The position numbers and the translations under genes were made by a program. From NCBI GenBank assembly GCA_022769545.1, contig JALEJS010000034.1, positions 78,088 to 142,087 on the forward strand: a stretch of DNA of 64,000 nucleotides, in the 5' to 3' direction. Under the pieces are notes generated by a model. That model was given only the letters and a program-made list of their open reading frames with translations, was not told the origin of the DNA and made no database searches. The DNA is from Blautia sp. (GTDB taxonomy: Bacteria; Bacillota; Clostridia; Lachnospirales; Lachnospiraceae). Shown in pieces: positions 33,556 through 42,826 of this stretch (within the stretch, counting starts at the first letter, position 1; each line of letters begins with the position of its first letter).

Positions 33556-34074
33556 TCACGGCACCAGCAGCACCGCGGCGATGATCCCGGCAAGGTTCGC
33601 CAGAATCGCTCCGACAAGCGTATACCGGGTTTTTTCGATTTTTGCGGAACCGAAATATACGCTCATGCAGTAGAATACACTTTCTGTTGAGCTTAAGATC
33701 ATTGCCGCCATAATCCCCATTCTGGAATCTGCTCCGAATTCTTTGAATACATCCAGGAGCAGACCGGTAGCCGCACTGGAAGAAAAAAGCCGCACCAGCG
33801 ACAGCGGAACCAGCGGTGCCGGAAATCCGATCCGGCCGGTAACATTTCCCAGTACTCCCGCCAGAAAATCCAGAAAACCGGAGGCTCTCAGAATTCCTAC
33901 GGCCGTCATAAGACCGATCAGCGTCGGGCAGATTCCCGCCGCTGTTTTCAGGCCTTCCCTTGCTCCTTCCAGAAAGTCGCCGTAGATATTCCTTCCGGAC
34001 CAGAGGCCGCTTCCAAGTACATACAGAAACAAAAAAGGTATCATAAGATCCGACAGATAAGTGAGCAGTTTCAT
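33556..34074 (-). CDS. spmB: Spore maturation protein B
   Basis: Gate/nucleoside-recognition fold; ILSSTESVFYCMSVYFGSAKIEKTRYTLVGA. Confidence 0.92.
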   Translation of the reverse strand: MKLLTYLSDLMIPFLFLYVLGSGLWSGRNIYGDFLEGAREGLKTAAGICPTLIGLMTAVGILRASGFLDFLAGVLGNVTGRIGFPAPLVPLSLVRLFSSSAATGLLLDVFKEFGADSRMGIMAAMILSSTESVFYCMSVYFGSAKIEKTRYTLVGAILANLAGIIAAVLLVP

Positions 34075-34140
34075 TGGGAACTCTCCGCTGTCTTCTTATG
34101 ATACCTTATGTTTTTTCTTTCGCTCCAATACCAGAACGTA

Positions 34141-35979
34141 TCAGAATTTTTTCAGCAGCCACAGAAAATCATGACCGGGAAGGCTGATCCGGGGCAGCTC
34201 CTGCGTTTCACCGGTAAGCATGTTCCGGTAGGTTCCTTCCTCATTCAGCGTAATGTTTCTGTCCAGATCATGGAAATTAAAGATGCCGATCATCTGACAG
34301 CCATCCTTATATCTTCCGATCACCAGAACGGAAGGATCCTGTACGTCAATCGTCCAGGTATCTGCATCTGCATCAAATACGTTCTGTTCCTTCCGGATCG
34401 TTTCCAGTTCCCGCAGTCCCCGGAACACTTTCCCGGGCACCGTGGACACGTCCGAAGCTTTTTCGGCTGCTTCCCACCGGAAAGTACCCCGGTGAACATA
34501 TCTGGAGTCAACCGCCTTTGCCGGATTCTCCCGATAGGTATAATCATTCAGCTGTGCCACCTCATCTCCGCTGTACAGCATGGGAATCCCCGACTGCGTC
34601 AGCATATACGCATGCAGCATGAGATCGTACCGGATTGCTGCTTCCAGCTTCTGTGCATCCTTTTCCTGCTGTGCGCTTTCAATTCCGCACATGGATGCCG
34701 TAGTTCCGCAGAAACGGGCATCACCGAGACGGGGATCGTCGTTATAGAGCTCGCCTCTGCTGACGCTTCCTTCTTCTCTGCCGGTAAAGAACGCATTGAG
34801 AAATCTTTTATGGGAAACCTCTTCCATTCCCCAGCTCCGCAGCGTACCATAGTCCAGCCCCCAGCCGATATCGTCATGGCAGCGCAGATAATTCAGGAAC
34901 GTATATTCCTTCGGAAGACGGTTCACAATATCCATCTGCTGACGCAGAAGGCGAATGTCCCTGGTCGCAACAGAATTCCAGGTCGTTGCCATGGTCGTAA
35001 CATTGTAGAGCATGTGACATTCCGGTTTTTCCACTGTTCCGAAATAGGGTGCCACCTTCTCCGGTTCCATCACCACCTCACCCAGAAGGACCACCCCGGG
35101 ACAAACGATCTCTCCGATCATCCGCATCATCCGCACAATGGTATGAACCTGCGGAAGATTCCGGCACTGTGTTCCCAGCTCTTTCCAGATATAGGGAACC
35201 GCATCAATGCGGATGATATCCATGCCCTGATTTGCCAGATACAGGAAATTGTACATCATTTCGTTGAACACACGGGGATTGCGGTAATTCAGGTCCCACT
35301 GGTACGGATAAAATGTGGTCATGACATGATGACCGATTTCCGGAAGATATGTAAAGTTTCCCGGCGCCGTCGTGGGAAACACCTGTGGAACGGTCGCTTC
35401 ATACTGTGCCGGAATATCATAATTATCATAGAAGAAATAACGGCTCATATACTCACCGTCACCCTGTCTTGCCTTCACCGCCCACTCATGATCCTCTGAG
35501 GTATGATTCATGACAAAGTCCATGCAAAGATTCATATTCCTGTCATGACACTCCTCTGCCAGATCCGCCAGATCCTCCATGGTGCCAAGGTCCGGACGGA
35601 CTTTGCGAAAATCGGCAACCGCATAACCTCCGTCGGATCTGCCCTCCGGAGAATCCAGAAACGGCATGAGATGAATGGTATTCACCTGACAGCTCTGCAG
35701 ATAATCCAGCTTTGACTTTACGCCGTTTATCGTACCGGCAAAGTTATCGATGTAGAGCATCATTCCAAGCATATTTCTGTCTTTAAACCATCCCGGCCGG
35801 GCCTCTCTTTGTTCATCCAGCCGTTTCAGCTTCGGGTTTCGGACCCGGTCATATTCTTTCAGACGGTCACACAGTTCTGCAAACATATCTCCGTTGTTAT
35901 AAAGTTCCATGTACAGCCAACGCAGTTCATCGTGGTGGCGCTGCATTCTCTGTTCAAATAAACCTTCTTTTTTCGACAT
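34141..35979 (-). CDS. Amylosucrase-like GH13 enzyme
   Basis: GMDIIRIDAVPYIWKELGTQCRNLPQVH, LLGEVVMEPEKV, YLRCHDDIGWG; ~612 aa. Confidence 0.88.
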   Translation of the reverse strand: MSKKEGLFEQRMQRHHDELRWLYMELYNNGDMFAELCDRLKEYDRVRNPKLKRLDEQREARPGWFKDRNMLGMMLYIDNFAGTINGVKSKLDYLQSCQVNTIHLMPFLDSPEGRSDGGYAVADFRKVRPDLGTMEDLADLAEECHDRNMNLCMDFVMNHTSEDHEWAVKARQGDGEYMSRYFFYDNYDIPAQYEATVPQVFPTTAPGNFTYLPEIGHHVMTTFYPYQWDLNYRNPRVFNEMMYNFLYLANQGMDIIRIDAVPYIWKELGTQCRNLPQVHTIVRMMRMIGEIVCPGVVLLGEVVMEPEKVAPYFGTVEKPECHMLYNVTTMATTWNSVATRDIRLLRQQMDIVNRLPKEYTFLNYLRCHDDIGWGLDYGTLRSWGMEEVSHKRFLNAFFTGREEGSVSRGELYNDDPRLGDARFCGTTASMCGIESAQQEKDAQKLEAAIRYDLMLHAYMLTQSGIPMLYSGDEVAQLNDYTYRENPAKAVDSRYVHRGTFRWEAAEKASDVSTVPGKVFRGLRELETIRKEQNVFDADADTWTIDVQDPSVLVIGRYKDGCQMIGIFNFHDLDRNITLNEEGTYRNMLTGETQELPRISLPGHDFLWLLKKF

Positions 35980-36035
35980 ACGAGCTCCTTCTGACTTCTG
36001 TCAGCCTGTGATTTTATTTCATGGTATTTTTACGT

Positions 36036-37022
36036 TTATTTCCTCGTGGATTCCTTTTCAATCACTGAATATCCCAGCATCCGTTCTCTCGGACTGTCCG
36101 TTCCGTTCTCCAGCTTGCTCATGAGCATGGAAGCTGCAAGTCTTCCGCTCTCCTCATAGGAAAACCGGACGGTGGTAAGCGTAGGTGACATTACGCCGGA
36201 CAGAACGGAATCTCCAAATCCGGCCAGCATGATCTCACCCGGCACATCAATTCCTTTTTCCTTCAGATACTGTCTGGCTCCGGCTGCCATGGAGTCCGTA
36301 GCACAGATGATGGCATCCAGATCCGGGAATTTTTCCAGAAGCTGTCCGGCCATCGCATAGCCTGACAGCACATTGAATTCCGCCACTACATACTGACCGC
36401 ACAAGGCATCCATACCGTTTTCCCGGAGCGCATCACAAAATCCCTCAAACCTTCCTGCTCCGGCAGCCTTGTCCTGAAGGGTCGCGCTGATAAATCCGGG
36501 ATTTTTGCTGCCCCTTTTCAGAACCAGTCCGGTGAGATCCCGTGCCGCATGATAGTCATCGTGATAGATGCAGTTTGTGTCGGCCAGCCGCTGCCCGACC
36601 AGAATCACCGGCACCTGAAGATTGTTCAGAAGCTTTCGGTGTTCCGGTGTGAATACCGTCGCCAGAAAAATGATGCCGTCCACCTGTTTTTTGTTGAACA
36701 CAGACAGATACTCCAGCTCCTTGAGCGGATTGTTCTGCGTATCCGCCATAAGCATTTTGTATCCATGCTCTTCCAGAACAGAGGAAATTCCGGAAACCAC
36801 ACTTCCCATGGATGCCGAATTGATTTTCGGAAGAATTACCCCGATCAGCTTCGTCTTCTTCGTCCGCAGTGTCTGTGCCTGAAGAGAGGGACGGTATCCG
36901 GTTCTTTCCACGACCACACGGATTGCCTCTTTCTTCTCCTCCGACAAATATCCGTTGTTAAAATATCTGGATACAGCCGCATTGGAGACCCCGGCCTGCC
37001 GGGCTATTTCCGCAATGTTCAT
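36036..37022 (-). CDS. LacI family transcriptional regulator (ScrR-like)
   Basis: MNIAEIARQAGVSNAAVSRYFNNGYLSEEKKEAIRVVVERTGYRPS. Confidence 0.95.
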   Translation of the reverse strand: MNIAEIARQAGVSNAAVSRYFNNGYLSEEKKEAIRVVVERTGYRPSLQAQTLRTKKTKLIGVILPKINSASMGSVVSGISSVLEEHGYKMLMADTQNNPLKELEYLSVFNKKQVDGIIFLATVFTPEHRKLLNNLQVPVILVGQRLADTNCIYHDDYHAARDLTGLVLKRGSKNPGFISATLQDKAAGAGRFEGFCDALRENGMDALCGQYVVAEFNVLSGYAMAGQLLEKFPDLDAIICATDSMAAGARQYLKEKGIDVPGEIMLAGFGDSVLSGVMSPTLTTVRFSYEESGRLAASMLMSKLENGTDSPRERMLGYSVIEKESTRK

Positions 37023-37038
37023 CCTTTGTCCTCCCTTT

Positions 37039-37056
37039 TGTGAAATCCTTTTCACA
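37039..37056. promoter_or_regulatory. Candidate LacI-type autoregulatory operator
   Basis: TGTGAAATCCTTTTCACA, 7-bp perfect arms, just upstream of the LacI start. Confidence 0.5.
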
Positions 37057-37120
37057 TCATACCATACAACCGCTTCTCTGTCAAAATCCAATTCCGCAAA
37101 ATTCCTCTGAACATATGGCT

Positions 37121-38740
37121 TTACAAAATTTCCCGGATCCGTTTCCGAAGCTTCAGAATCATGGCAGGCGATACCGATAATTCATCCACACCCATCCGCA
37201 CAAATTCTTCGGTCAGCTGAAGATCCGCTCCCAGCTCTCCGCAGATTCCCACCCATTTTCCATGTCTGTGCGCACTGTCAACGGTCATTTTTATCATGCG
37301 CAGCACTGCCGGATGACGGGCATCATAAAAATCATCCAGTTTTTCGTTCTGCCGGTCGATGGCAAGCGTGTACTGTGTCAGATCGTTCGTCCCGATACTG
37401 AAAAAATCCGTCAGCTGTGCCAGCTCCTCACTGATCATCACCGCTGCCGGTGTCTCGATCATGATCCCCTGCTCCGGAATCCGGTAAGGAATCCCGGAAT
37501 CCTTCAGTTCCTGTCCCACAGATTCCACGATCTTATGGATTTTCTTTATCTCCTGGGTTGAAATGATCATCGGATACATGACCGCCAGATTTCCGTATAC
37601 GGCAGCGCGCATCAGCGCTCTGAGCTGAGTCCGGAAAATCTGCGGCTGCCTCAGGCAGATCCGGATGGCACGATATCCCATCGCCGGATTTTCCTCCTTC
37701 CCCAGCTGCAGATATTCTGCCTGCTTATCCGCACCGATATCCAGCGTTCGAATGATCACCTTTTTATCCGCCATCATCTGGAGCACCTGTCGGTATGCGG
37801 CAAACTGTTCCTCCTCAGAAGGAAGTGCCTGTCTTCCCAGGTACAGAAATTCACTGCGGAAAAGTCCGATCCCTTCCGCATCATTCTCAAGAACATGTCC
37901 CATATCCGAGACATTTCCAATGTTGGCATACAGATGGACGCATCTGCCGGAGCGGGTCACCGTTGCTTTTCCTCTCAGGCAGTTCAGCAGCATTTCCTGT
38001 TCCCGTTCCTCCCGGATCCGTGCCTCTGCCTGGCGGCACTGTTCCGGAGACGGATTCAGAATCATCCGTCCCGTTCCTCCGTCCACGATCGCCGTCATAC
38101 CATTTTTCAGCTGATCCAACTCCATCGGGACACCCACCAGTGCGGGAATATTCATCATCCGGGCAAGAATTGCCGTGTGAGACTGTGAGGAGCCCTGTAC
38201 CGTCGCAAAGGCAAGGATTTTATCCTTGTCCATCTGCACAGTCTCACTGGGCGTCAGATCATCCGCCACAATGATCACCGGACCGGAAATCACCGTTTTT
38301 TCACCGGCATTTCCCTGAAGGTTCTGCACCAGGCGATTGGAAACATCCCGGATATCTGCCGCACGGGCCTTCATATATTCATCGTCCATTCCGGCAAACA
38401 TTTCCGAGAAATGATCTCCGGTCAATGCTGCCGCAAATTCTGCGTTTACCATCTCATTCTCAATGATCCGGTGGATCGCATTCTGATAATCCTCATCCTC
38501 CAGAAGCATCTGATGCACCTCGAAAATAGCCGCACGGGCCTCTCCCACTTCGGCTCTTGCCTTCTCATACAGTGCCTGCAGCTGTTCCCCGGACAGCTCC
38601 ACCGCACGCTCCAGTCGTTCCAGCTCTGCCCCGGCATCCTGGATTTTTCTTCTTTTGACCACAAAATCCCTTTTGTCTATCACCAGAACCGGTCCCATCG
38701 CAGTCCCTTTACAGACGGATTTTCCTGTCAGCTCCATCAT
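37121..38740 (-). CDS. ptsI: PTS enzyme I (phosphoenolpyruvate-protein phosphotransferase)
   Basis: GSSQSHTAILARMMNIPALVGV; FRSEFLYLGR; DFFSIGTNDLTQYTLAIDR; GICGELGAD. Confidence 0.97.
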   Translation of the reverse strand: MMELTGKSVCKGTAMGPVLVIDKRDFVVKRRKIQDAGAELERLERAVELSGEQLQALYEKARAEVGEARAAIFEVHQMLLEDEDYQNAIHRIIENEMVNAEFAAALTGDHFSEMFAGMDDEYMKARAADIRDVSNRLVQNLQGNAGEKTVISGPVIIVADDLTPSETVQMDKDKILAFATVQGSSQSHTAILARMMNIPALVGVPMELDQLKNGMTAIVDGGTGRMILNPSPEQCRQAEARIREEREQEMLLNCLRGKATVTRSGRCVHLYANIGNVSDMGHVLENDAEGIGLFRSEFLYLGRQALPSEEEQFAAYRQVLQMMADKKVIIRTLDIGADKQAEYLQLGKEENPAMGYRAIRICLRQPQIFRTQLRALMRAAVYGNLAVMYPMIISTQEIKKIHKIVESVGQELKDSGIPYRIPEQGIMIETPAAVMISEELAQLTDFFSIGTNDLTQYTLAIDRQNEKLDDFYDARHPAVLRMIKMTVDSAHRHGKWVGICGELGADLQLTEEFVRMGVDELSVSPAMILKLRKRIREIL

Positions 38741-38791
38741 TTCTTATCTCTCCTGCAGTATTTTTTCAACTCTGATTCAATACCGGTGTCT

Positions 38792-39055
38792 TTACAGATT
38801 GGCTTCAAAAAAGGCCTGCAGCTCCCGGCACGCCGTTTCCTCATCCTCACCCTCGCAGGTTACCGTAACCTGGTCTTTGCATTTCACAGCCATTCCCATC
38901 ACGGTCATCAGTCTTGTTGCATCTGCACTTTTCCCTCTGGCTGCAATGGTAATCCTGCTTTCGTATTTTCTGGCTTCCTTCGCCAGAAGGCCCGCCGGAC
39001 GCGCATGAATTCCAAGCTGGTCTCTGATCTCATATACAAAACGTTTCATAGTCAT
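38792..39055 (-). CDS. HPr-like phosphocarrier protein with Arg at the Ser46 position
   Basis: QLGIHARPAGLLAKEARKY (His15 motif); GKSADATRLMTVMGMAVK aligns R with Ser46. Confidence 0.93.
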   Translation of the reverse strand: MTMKRFVYEIRDQLGIHARPAGLLAKEARKYESRITIAARGKSADATRLMTVMGMAVKCKDQVTVTCEGEDEETACRELQAFFEANL

Positions 39056-39143
39056 ACAACTCCTTTATTTTTTCCGTTCAGGAGATAGTATGCCCCTTTT
39101 TTGTATCTTGATTCAATGCCGGAAAACATATGCCGGCTCACAT

Positions 39144-39989
39144 TCAGCACAGTCCATTCTTCCGGAATGCCCGCAGCAGCCCGTCCTCTGCCACTGCCGG
39201 GCAGACCTGATCCGCCAGCTCTTTCAGCTTCAGACTTCCGTTTCCCATACAGATTCCCACTCCGGCTGCCTGAAGCATTTCCAGGTCGTTCATACTGTCC
39301 CCGAATGCCACGGACTGCGCCCTGGGAATTCCCAGATAATCGCATACCTTTCCGATGGCTGTGCCCTTATCAAACTCTTTTCCCATCACCTCACCGCTGT
39401 AAAACCCGAATTCATTGGGATCCGTGATGCAAAAATAAAAATTCTCACCCAGAAGTGCCTTCGCCCGCACAAGTATTTCCCGGTCATCTGTCATTCCCAC
39501 GATCTTATATACCGGCTGATCCAGATACCGGCTCATGGGCTGGATGTGCAGCGTCTCCTCCACTTCTGCACGCCATAACAGCATCTCCCGGTTTCTTCCG
39601 CGGTCCGGATTCTTCCGCAGATATTCCCGGAGCCCGCTTTCAATATAACTGCCGTCCTTGCATTCCACCGTGCAGAAAGCCCCCTGCTCCCGCAGCACCT
39701 GCAGAACCCGGTCCCGCATTCTGTGTGTCATAGGATGATCGTAAAGAATTTCCTGCCCGCAGAATATATATCCTCCGGAGCTGGCCGCCACACCGTCAAA
39801 TTCATATTGCAGAAGCGGCCGCAGCATTTCCCGGTTCCGTCCGGTACACAAGAACACATAATTTCCCCGCTGTCTTGCTTCCGCTATGGCCTTCACAGCC
39901 GATTCCGGCGGCACATTGCTCCCCGGCGGCGTCAGCGTACCGTCAATATCCAGAAAAATCACTCTTTTCTTTTGTTCAAAATCATTCAT
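39144..39989 (-). CDS. HAD superfamily (Cof-type) phosphatase
   Basis: VIFLDIDGTLTPPGS, FLCTGRNREML, VAFGDSMNDLEMLQAAGVGICMGNG. Confidence 0.95.
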   Translation of the reverse strand: MNDFEQKKRVIFLDIDGTLTPPGSNVPPESAVKAIAEARQRGNYVFLCTGRNREMLRPLLQYEFDGVAASSGGYIFCGQEILYDHPMTHRMRDRVLQVLREQGAFCTVECKDGSYIESGLREYLRKNPDRGRNREMLLWRAEVEETLHIQPMSRYLDQPVYKIVGMTDDREILVRAKALLGENFYFCITDPNEFGFYSGEVMGKEFDKGTAIGKVCDYLGIPRAQSVAFGDSMNDLEMLQAAGVGICMGNGSLKLKELADQVCPAVAEDGLLRAFRKNGLC

Positions 39990-39997
39990 AGCATTCT

Positions 39998-41059
39998 TTA
40001 TCTTCCAGGCAACTCAGGTAATTCATCAAATATTATATCTGGTTCCTTTTTTCTTCTGTTTTCATCAAAAATACCATATTGTTTTATTGCCAGTTCATCT
40101 GCATATTTTTTTGTTACACTTCCGGCATTTTCCAACACATTCCTTCCCATAAACTGCAGAAAAGCATTAAGTTTTTCTTCCCAGTCTTTCATATACATTG
40201 GGATATGCTGTTTTGCCTGATCTTCTGCATAATCCAAATACATGGTAACAATTCTGTTAAGATTTGAAATTTCATCCTGCTTCAAATAATTTTTTGCTAT
40301 GGTTACATCTGTTTTTCGTACTCTTGCTCCTTTAAATGCAGTCAACCCCATATTATCTTTTGATGCATCTGCTCGTTCTGCAATCAATTCCGCCGCTGTA
40401 TGTCCATGTACTGAATAGTGTAGTTTGTTTTGAACTGTTTTAAAGAAAATGTCTGCCTGCCTGCTTTTAGGGTCATAATCTATCGAAGTTGCAAAAATAT
40501 CTTTTATCTTTAAGTATACTCTTTTCTCGGAAGCCCTGATATCACGGATTCTCTCCAGTAATTCATCAAAATAGTCTTCTCCGAACTTTTTAGGATTTTT
40601 GAGACGTTCATCATTCATGACAAATCCTTTTCTCATGTATTCTTCCAAAATAGAAGATGCCCAGTTTCGAAAATGCATGCCAATATTATTCCTGACGCGA
40701 TATCCAATTGCCAAAATCATCTGTAAATTGTATATTTTTACCTCTCGCTGTACCTGTCTGCTCCCCTCTTTTTGAACTTGTAAGTAATTCTTACAAGTTG
40801 CTTCCTCCTGTAATTCTCCATCCTTATATATATTTTTAATATGAAGCGTAATATTTTGTGGTGAGGTCTGATATAACTCTGCTATACTTTTTTGTGTCAT
40901 CCATACAGATCCATCATTAAAAAAGACATCTACCTTCGTATCTCCTTTTTCATTTTGATATATTAAAATATTTCCTTCAACATGATCCATATTATTGGGT
41001 TCCTCCATAATATTTGTATATGTCTGATTGCTCATTATATAGTGATATTTGTCGGGCAA
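39998..41059 (-). CDS. RhuM family protein (start possibly 41035)
   Basis: VFFNDGSVWMTQKSIAELYQTSPQNITLHIKNIYKDGEL; IGYRVRNNIGMHFRNWASSILEEYMRKGFVMNDERLKNP. Confidence 0.92.
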   Translation of the reverse strand: MPDKYHYIMSNQTYTNIMEEPNNMDHVEGNILIYQNEKGDTKVDVFFNDGSVWMTQKSIAELYQTSPQNITLHIKNIYKDGELQEEATCKNYLQVQKEGSRQVQREVKIYNLQMILAIGYRVRNNIGMHFRNWASSILEEYMRKGFVMNDERLKNPKKFGEDYFDELLERIRDIRASEKRVYLKIKDIFATSIDYDPKSRQADIFFKTVQNKLHYSVHGHTAAELIAERADASKDNMGLTAFKGARVRKTDVTIAKNYLKQDEISNLNRIVTMYLDYAEDQAKQHIPMYMKDWEEKLNAFLQFMGRNVLENAGSVTKKYADELAIKQYGIFDENRRKKEPDIIFDELPELPGR

Positions 41060-41100
41060 CTCATATTATACATACAAATTCACCAAAAATCTTTGTCCTT

Positions 41101-42108
41101 TCAGAACTGATAGTATAATTCCACATCCACTAATCTATTATTTATAATTCTTTCGATATCCTCATCTTTGTGTACAATGCAGCCTTTTATCAACGTATCA
41201 CTTGCTCCGGTAATTTGTTTAATTATAGAGTCATTCAGACCAGCTTTTAAAAGCTGGCTTATTCCATATTTTATAATACTGGTAACGCTCGTACTTTCAA
41301 TCAATTGTGAAAGTGTATCGGAAATACCTGATGCTGATGTGGTTTCTCCCCATTCTTCTCCTTGTGCATTCGTAAAAAGAAATCCCTTCTTATTCCGAAT
41401 TTTATTTTTTTCCAAAAAATCTTTCATTCGTTTCATCTGTATCCCCATATTGATTGGCAAACGAATTTCAAATCCACCTACCGTAATCGTATTTCGTATA
41501 CTGTTATATTGATCTATTTTTATTTTTCGTAATTCACGATATGTAAAACCATAAATGAGCATCAATTTCAGTCCTAACGCTACCATAGCCTTTCGAAATG
41601 CAGTTTCATCAACTTCCTTTTTTTCGATATCACCATACCATTTTCCATCATCTTCAAGTTGAGCATCTGCCCATTTTAATACCTTTTCAGCCTCACTTCG
41701 TCCTATTCCTTCCAATTCTATGGTTCCCTGCAATTGATTACACTCATTGATGTATGACATCATCTGCTTCATATATGTATTTTCACGCAATTTATTATAT
41801 GAAATAGCCTCAAAAAGGCCAGGATTATCTATATCTGTATTTTTACGAATATAATCAAAAAAAATCCCTATCACTGTCACATATTTCTTTGCTGCATTTT
41901 TTCTCTTATAAATCCCTCTTTCTTCCACATTATAGATCAAACTGTCCAACAAAAATTTGACATCCAATCCTTGAAGTAAAAACCTGATATTCGCATCGGA
42001 CAATGAATTTTTCCATTGTTTTTCTAAATACACAGAAAAATTCCATACATCATTTTTATAGTCCGGGTACTTGCCCGAAAATTCTTCCACGATTTTTACA
42101 TAATCCAT
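41101..42108 (-). CDS. Tyrosine-recombinase/integrase-like protein with apparently degenerate catalytic site
   Basis: Integrase-like layout: YGFTYRELRKIKIDQ at box I and IIKYGISQLLKAGLNDSIIKQITGASD at box II; strong RBS GGAGGGCGGATA before ATG at 42108. Confidence 0.6.
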   Translation of the reverse strand: MDYVKIVEEFSGKYPDYKNDVWNFSVYLEKQWKNSLSDANIRFLLQGLDVKFLLDSLIYNVEERGIYKRKNAAKKYVTVIGIFFDYIRKNTDIDNPGLFEAISYNKLRENTYMKQMMSYINECNQLQGTIELEGIGRSEAEKVLKWADAQLEDDGKWYGDIEKKEVDETAFRKAMVALGLKLMLIYGFTYRELRKIKIDQYNSIRNTITVGGFEIRLPINMGIQMKRMKDFLEKNKIRNKKGFLFTNAQGEEWGETTSASGISDTLSQLIESTSVTSIIKYGISQLLKAGLNDSIIKQITGASDTLIKGCIVHKDEDIERIINNRLVDVELYYQF

Positions 42109-42237
42109 TATCCGCCCTCCACACGCCCAATACATTCAATAAAATCCGTAAAATATTTTCAATGTTTTCTGCAATTAATTGAACTAATCTGTTCTATTTA
42201 TATCATGCAATACACAAATAATCAACATATTTTAAAG

Positions 42238-42260
42238 ACGAAGAGCTTCATGCTCTTCGC
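42238..42260 (-). terminator. Hairpin overlapping 3' end of spmA
   Basis: CGAAGAGC/GCTCTTCG with 5-nt loop, TCTTTAAAA following on minus strand. Confidence 0.55.
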
Positions 42261-42826
42261 CTTATTCGATCCATGATCTTACAGAACACTACTGCTGCCA
42301 TCGTGCTTACAGTCGTAGCCAGCAATGCCGGCCCGACGATCGACGCCGGATCCGCACTCCCGTACTGTGCCCGATAGGCGATAATATTGATAGGGATCAG
42401 CTGCAGAGAAGATACATTGAGAATCAGAAATGTACACATAGAACGGCTCGCTGTCTCATTCCTGTTTATTCTGTCCAGTTCCCGGAAGGCCTTCAGACCG
42501 GATGCCGTACTGGCCCATCCCAGGCCCAGCATATTGGACAGAAAATTCAGAGAAATATACTTTCTGGCCAGCGGCTCCCTTTCCAGCTCCGGAAAAAGAA
42601 ATTTCATAAGTGGCTGCATACGCCGCGCCAGCACGTCCACCAGTCCGCACGCTTCCGCAATTCTCATGATGCCGGTCCACATCGCTGTGATTCCCGCCAT
42701 CGCAATACACAGCTCCACGGCTTCTCCGGAAGACGTAACCGCTGCTTTCGTCACCGCACCCAGATTTCCGGTACATGTTCCGTACAAAATTCCCACCAGT
42801 ATCATCCCCGCCCACAGATATGTCAT
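42248..42826 (-). CDS. spmA: Spore maturation protein A
   Basis: NFLSNMLGLGWASTASGLKAFRELDRIN; FLILNVSSLQLIPINIIAYRAQYGSADP. Confidence 0.92.
   Translation of the reverse strand: MTYLWAGMILVGILYGTCTGNLGAVTKAAVTSSGEAVELCIAMAGITAMWTGIMRIAEACGLVDVLARRMQPLMKFLFPELEREPLARKYISLNFLSNMLGLGWASTASGLKAFRELDRINRNETASRSMCTFLILNVSSLQLIPINIIAYRAQYGSADPASIVGPALLATTVSTMAAVVFCKIMDRIRRRA

Follow-up and report, generated by a model that had tools for sequence, protein, structure and literature searches.

What a recombinase-like protein that seems to have lost its chemistry does in front of rhuM, and how the two genes came to lie at the end of a sporulation gene, is the question raised by a short island in the window, that is, the whole 64,000-nucleotide stretch of Blautia sp. 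DNA that was analysed. PMC12529663 describes recombinases as often lying beside anti-phage genes in defence islands, with an unknown role in defence, and as often dismissed as prophage markers. The reading put forward here, to which we give a probability of roughly 0.55, is that the island would be an SCC-like, non-autonomous defence cassette in which a catalytically dead recombinase acts as regulator of, or sensor for, an interchangeable effector.

The island at the 3' end of spmA

Positions 39998-42247 have a GC content of 33.1% compared with 48.5% for the window, and no 2250-bp stretch in the window is lower, which bears out the AT-rich two-gene island described in the initial annotation. 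It consists of two minus-strand genes, the recombinase-like gene and then rhuM, with 41 bp between the ORFs. The recombinase-like gene (41101..42108) encodes 335 amino acids from an ATG at 42108; the longest ORF reaches 42135, and the start at 42108, already chosen in that annotation, is backed by homologues. Homologues likewise place the probable start of rhuM (39998..40990) at 40990, within an ORF extending to 41059. A TTGATT-17-TATAAA arrangement read from the sequence of the minus strand at 42197..42225, just past the spmA terminator, is the probable promoter of the two-gene operon, and this arrangement is shared with the loci L007 (TTGACT-17-TATAAA) and L006 (TTGATT-17-TAAAAT). The terminator-like inverted repeat CGAAGAGC-5-GCTCTTCG at 42239..42259 spans the spmA stop codon, and a hairpin occupies the equivalent position of the spmA end in L034, L079, L090 and L184/L235. 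The island is a two-gene operon directly 3' of spmA (42248..42826, minus strand); insertion took place at the 3' end of this gene, which remains a complete frame in the window.

The spmB gene (33556..34074, minus strand) lies ∼8 kb from spmA, beyond the cassette and unrelated genes. In many genomes of the same genus spmA and spmB overlap or are adjacent, and they, rather than the HAD gene and spmA, are the natural neighbours. As many spmA-spmB gaps hold ordinary metabolic genes, a gap alone is no evidence of a cassette. The interval between the cassette and spmB in the window (34074-39989) carries HAD, HPr, PTS enzyme I, LacI regulator and GH13 genes of normal GC content.

The second gene is rhuM, as had been supposed: its product is a full-length member of Pfam PF13310 (E 9.5e-114, 379 bits against a cut-off of 33.7) and matches PADLOC PDC-S05, a phage-defence-candidate family (E 2.3e-145). 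A toxin role for RhuM has been proposed, with Fic/Doc fusions, PrrC and restriction-modification genes named as its partners (PMC3710099). The window RhuM resembles known members in its domain and differs in having a dead recombinase as its partner.

A clade of tyrosine recombinase relatives with lost catalytic residues

The recombinase-like protein of the window, searched alone, gave no match in Pfam, NCBIfam, PADLOC or PHROG, and an AlphaFold model built from three sequences reached a pLDDT of 47, too weak to be used for a fold search. Profile comparison did detect homology to tyrosine recombinases over the core-binding and catalytic domains: a family alignment of 18 sequences (A2) matched an alignment of ordinary integrases by hhalign with a probability of 98.3% and E 1.5e-14 over 236 columns, and matched XerA in the PDB (4a8e) with E 1.2e-5. 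Aligned with intact integrases by MAFFT, the window protein reads T, T, I, A, I at the positions of the integrase R, H, R, H, Y, and the profile-to-XerA alignment agrees on these replacements. The tyrosine recombinase fold and the catalytic losses first noticed by eye are therefore both upheld by alignment, and the R-H-R-H/W-Y set is not restored in the window protein by the profile comparison.

This loss extends well beyond the window. In a clade of 23 sequences H, R2, H3 and Y are kept in none, and R1 in one (L036), so that 22 of the 23 members retain none of the five catalytic residues and the remaining one a single Arg. A tree built from 75 sequences unites the dead members as a monophyletic group (support 1.0), and at least four of the five residues are kept in 49 of the 52 ordinary relatives. 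A single dead clade among mostly intact relatives places the loss of catalysis, as judged from the alignments, in the ancestor of the whole clade.

The protein is under purifying selection, with a dN/dS of ∼0.1 between the window and L006/L007, and reading frames are intact across the family; for RhuM the ratio is 0.04-0.07 between genomes. These values bear on the idea that the protein is a functionless, decaying passenger, which the catalytic loss and the lost right end of the window cassette (see below) might suggest but which is hardly tenable for a family with such ratios and intact frames. Between the window and L008, dN is 0.29 for the recombinase-like protein and 0.48 for RhuM, values which indicate that the dead recombinase was held while RhuM was exchanged.

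Deprived of recombinase catalysis, the window protein is probably a DNA-binding factor with an effector as its partner. Of the earlier proposal that it may have become a DNA-binding factor rather than a recombinase, the loss of catalysis stands, and the binding role is probable. A known case of this kind is MrpR (YopR; PDB 8A0A), the master repressor of SPbeta, which has a tyrosine recombinase fold with largely lost catalytic residues, shows no recombination activity, acts as a DNA-binding repressor and keeps Lys and Tyr (PMC10516654). The dead tyrosine recombinase fold is common to both proteins, but the window protein lacks even the Tyr that MrpR keeps with its Lys, and MrpR is a phage repressor whereas the window family is the partner of defence genes. 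No sequence homology of A2 to MrpR/YopR was found by hhalign (0.14%), nor any direct homology to YopP. If the dead recombinase regulates or senses, it would represent a second, independent exaptation of a recombinase to a regulator.

Partner genes and the role of the dead recombinase

Among 65 genomes of its genus, the window alone gave a strong match to the recombinase-like protein; matches were present in 18 of 397 genomes sampled from the family, several of them weak, and a protein search of plasmids, phage records and viral contigs found no relatives. The pairing with rhuM recurs, as had been asked of it, in at least three other genomes (L006, L007 and L008). Elsewhere the same-strand gene that follows the dead recombinase, mostly at less than 100 bp and sometimes overlapping it, is of another kind: HipA plus HIRAN (L033, L034), cas3 (L032), HEC-02 (L036), NgoPII-type restriction-modification (L038), an SLFN/AlbA_2 ATPase (L040, L041), SIR2 PDC-S25 (L042), a type IV restriction enzyme (L043), a retron RT-Toprim I-C (L157, 404 bp away), HNH (L039, L159) or of no known kind (L158, L011, L160). 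PADLOC defence families of eight system types account for 12 of the 19 visible partners, three of these 12 being assigned by close homology to a scanned one; in a small control set of ten genes beside spmA, spmB or a cassette, two had PADLOC matches, one of them a UvrA paralogue. No same-strand effector follows the dead recombinase in L035 and L037, and L009 and L010 run to contig ends.

The HNH partners belong to distant relatives (L159:5527-7270 and L039:4441-6160), each followed by an overlapping, similar HNH nuclease gene; the gene, tested in L159, is absent from PADLOC and is a candidate unlisted defence gene. Another distant relative (L160:5162-11061) lies between ∼120-bp repeats, present in four copies, with complementary ends resembling integron attC sites.

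The initial annotation was supported in part, and it missed that the catalytic loss is ancestral to a clade partnering many other defence genes. What is defined here is a clade of proteins incapable of recombination, kept by selection and located upstream of at least eight defence gene types. Because its relatives precede many different effectors, the effector appears interchangeable and the dead recombinase constant. In the mechanism that we propose, the dead recombinase would cut no DNA but retain specific DNA binding, and, like MrpR in SPbeta, would serve the operon as a regulator or sensor; a toxic effector might thus be held back until phage or DNA invasion releases it. Its fixed position ahead of varying effectors, the short gaps and a probable promoter of its own fit such a regulatory or sensing role. 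Were this so, the protein would be a marker for finding new defence effectors. A common operator upstream of the dead recombinase was not found, an inverted-repeat scan being significant in L008 only. There, a near-perfect palindrome with 18-bp arms and a 3-bp gap (L008:8069-8107) lies upstream of the dead recombinase and is a candidate operator; it is close to an assembly break between spmA and the dead recombinase gene.

The same conserved gene order in a two-gene operon, the interchangeable effectors and the toxin role proposed for RhuM (PMC3710099) would also agree with a toxin-antitoxin or sensor-effector pair: instead of controlling transcription, the dead recombinase would contact RhuM directly and so neutralize or activate it. 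We consider this unlikely, as one family would have to contact the unrelated RhuM, retron RT, restriction-modification, SIR2 and Cas3 proteins, and restriction-modification and Cas3 are among effectors that need no protein antitoxin.

Cassette ends and large serine recombinases

Related cassettes were seen at spmA, spoVAC and csp, some containing a dead recombinase and others none. They end in a common motif (TTTAGTCCTAACTTGACACCA|GC), behind which lies a duplicate of the 3' end of the host gene. In L007, an 80%-identical homologue of the window cassette, the dead recombinase and rhuM are followed by the motif and a 111-bp copy of the spmA 3' end (91% identity). L079, from the same genus, holds an HTH-ImmA-PIN cassette with no recombinase-like gene and an spmA fragment behind the cargo, and TTTAGTCCTAACTTGACRCCAGC precedes the spmA fragment in both loci. 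L034 combines the dead recombinase and HipA/HIRAN with a motif variant and an spmA remnant, and L235 has the same end at spmA with a 314-bp copy (90%) and no dead recombinase. Tandem arrangements were seen at spoVAC in L236 (G111:C17:50000-66000), where two cassettes, with zeta toxin and an SLFN/AlbA_2 ATPase, come with two further copies of the 3' end of that gene (97%), and in L233/L234 (G164:C21:98000-133000), where four tandem cassette ends, each a motif plus a copy of the gene 3' end, lie at a csp-type subtilase gene, identified as csp by matching C-terminal residues read against L010. The same end occurs at the same csp-type gene in L237. The cargo of L233/L234 includes RHS and RelB/RelE-like as well as MNT/HEPN-like toxin-antitoxin genes in an integron-like layout.

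Within the clade the motif was seen in three cassettes only (L007, L034 and L036), and the L036 instance scored 17.4, the background reaching 12.4 at most over 745,262 positions. A pattern search gave eight hits in five genomes compared with five for the reversed control, a count not above chance; the evidence that counts is therefore the copied gene sequence behind the hits. With two exceptions, every site read has a remnant whose first letters are GC, which open an Ala codon; L034 carries an additional G, and L038 belongs to a different system. A serine integrase with a GC core would be predicted to leave such a start. An Rfam scan of the cassette ends returned only a group II intron. The window cassette has neither a right-end motif nor the spmA remnant that is present at the far end in L007, L034 and L079, as are such duplicates of the target gene in L235 and L236; its right end is lost.

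An exact motif scan of viral contigs led to L239 and L240, and a looser scan, otherwise mostly yielding chance hits (L262, L264-L271), to L263. In all three, a tandem set of three large serine recombinases precedes the motif, and sporulation gene sequence comes after it, from spmA in L240 and from spoVAC in L239 and L263. Pfam Resolvase and Recombinase domains were found in the L239 trio and in two of the L240 genes, and the L263 recombinases are 55-65% identical to those of L239. The window cassette encodes no large serine recombinase of its own, and a single query (L239 LSR3) had no match in the window genome at E 1e-20.

These ends bear on two further explanations. The dead recombinase could be an active integrase of unusual chemistry that moves its own cassette: it has an integrase-like position and a clade-specific insertion site, and the cassettes of L007 and L034 have no other recombinase-like gene. 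This is very improbable, since R1, H, R2, H and Y were all replaced in the clade ancestor, and since cassettes that lack the protein have this end and this site too, and three serine recombinases lie behind the motif. The integrase role was accordingly rejected, and on these same grounds the dead recombinase is probably cargo rather than a mobility enzyme.

Alternatively, it might bind the attachment site of the cassette as an accessory or directionality factor, assisting or hindering the serine recombinases. Its position at the left cassette end, beside the target gene, is suggestive, and proteins at least 46% identical to that of the window are at spmA in all seven loci showing the upstream neighbour: 3' of spmA in the window, L006, L007, L009, L033 and L034, and at 5 kb in L032. 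The next nearest, L010, sits at a csp gene, where other motif cassettes insert. We nevertheless regard this role as improbable, given the motif cassettes without a dead recombinase (L079, L235, G164, G111) and the occurrence of relatives at other sites such as prfA.

In L008 the pair lies before spmB, and spmA of that genome stops 96 bp from a contig end. In L009 (1098-2412) spmA and spmB point apart, which an inversion of spmA together with the cassette could explain.

For the defence cassette favoured above, we infer that the serine recombinase trio acts in trans: three tandem large serine recombinases, supplied from elsewhere, would integrate such cassettes by joining the cassette end to the 3' part of the sporulation gene, leaving the gene intact. 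The window cassette would be a stranded, non-autonomous copy that arrived in the same way as that of L007, the homologue on which its assignment rests. The initial annotation also missed that the island belongs to a group of cassettes in the spmA 3' end, inserted there apparently by serine recombinases encoded elsewhere. Extended to the family, the proposal becomes more tentative and falls somewhat short of an even chance: the catalysis-less clade would supply the constant partner, regulating or sensing, to which interchangeable anti-phage effectors are joined, and such modules would be spread in Lachnospiraceae by triple large-serine-recombinase cassettes landing in sporulation genes. The serine recombinase cassettes offer a view of how defence genes enter gut Clostridia, with a break point readable to the base.

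Two known systems are similar. SCCmec and the Enterococcus cassette chromosome (ECC) likewise use a gene 3' end as the site, leave the gene intact, have direct repeats at their ends and form tandem elements with several attR, large serine recombinases and variable cargo (PMC6222049). They differ in their site, rlmH rather than spmA, spoVAC and csp, in their CcrAB recombinases compared with three serine recombinases here, most of the present cassettes having none, and in their att motif TATCATAA, from which the end motif of the present cassettes differs; the rlmH site with TATCATAA that marks SCCmec/ECC proper is thus absent. The gin element in gerE of Bacillus cereus shares three serine recombinases, a sporulation-gene target, low GC content, restriction-modification cargo and a non-phage nature, but it is far larger, not all of its recombinases lie in tandem, and it splits gerE, from which it is excised during sporulation (PMC5595907), whereas spmA stays intact here.

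A different insertion system is represented by L038:4776-8149. Here the 3' end of prfA holds a dead-recombinase relative and NgoPII-type restriction-modification genes; a 41-bp direct repeat (95%) flanks the insert, and the spmA-type motif is absent.
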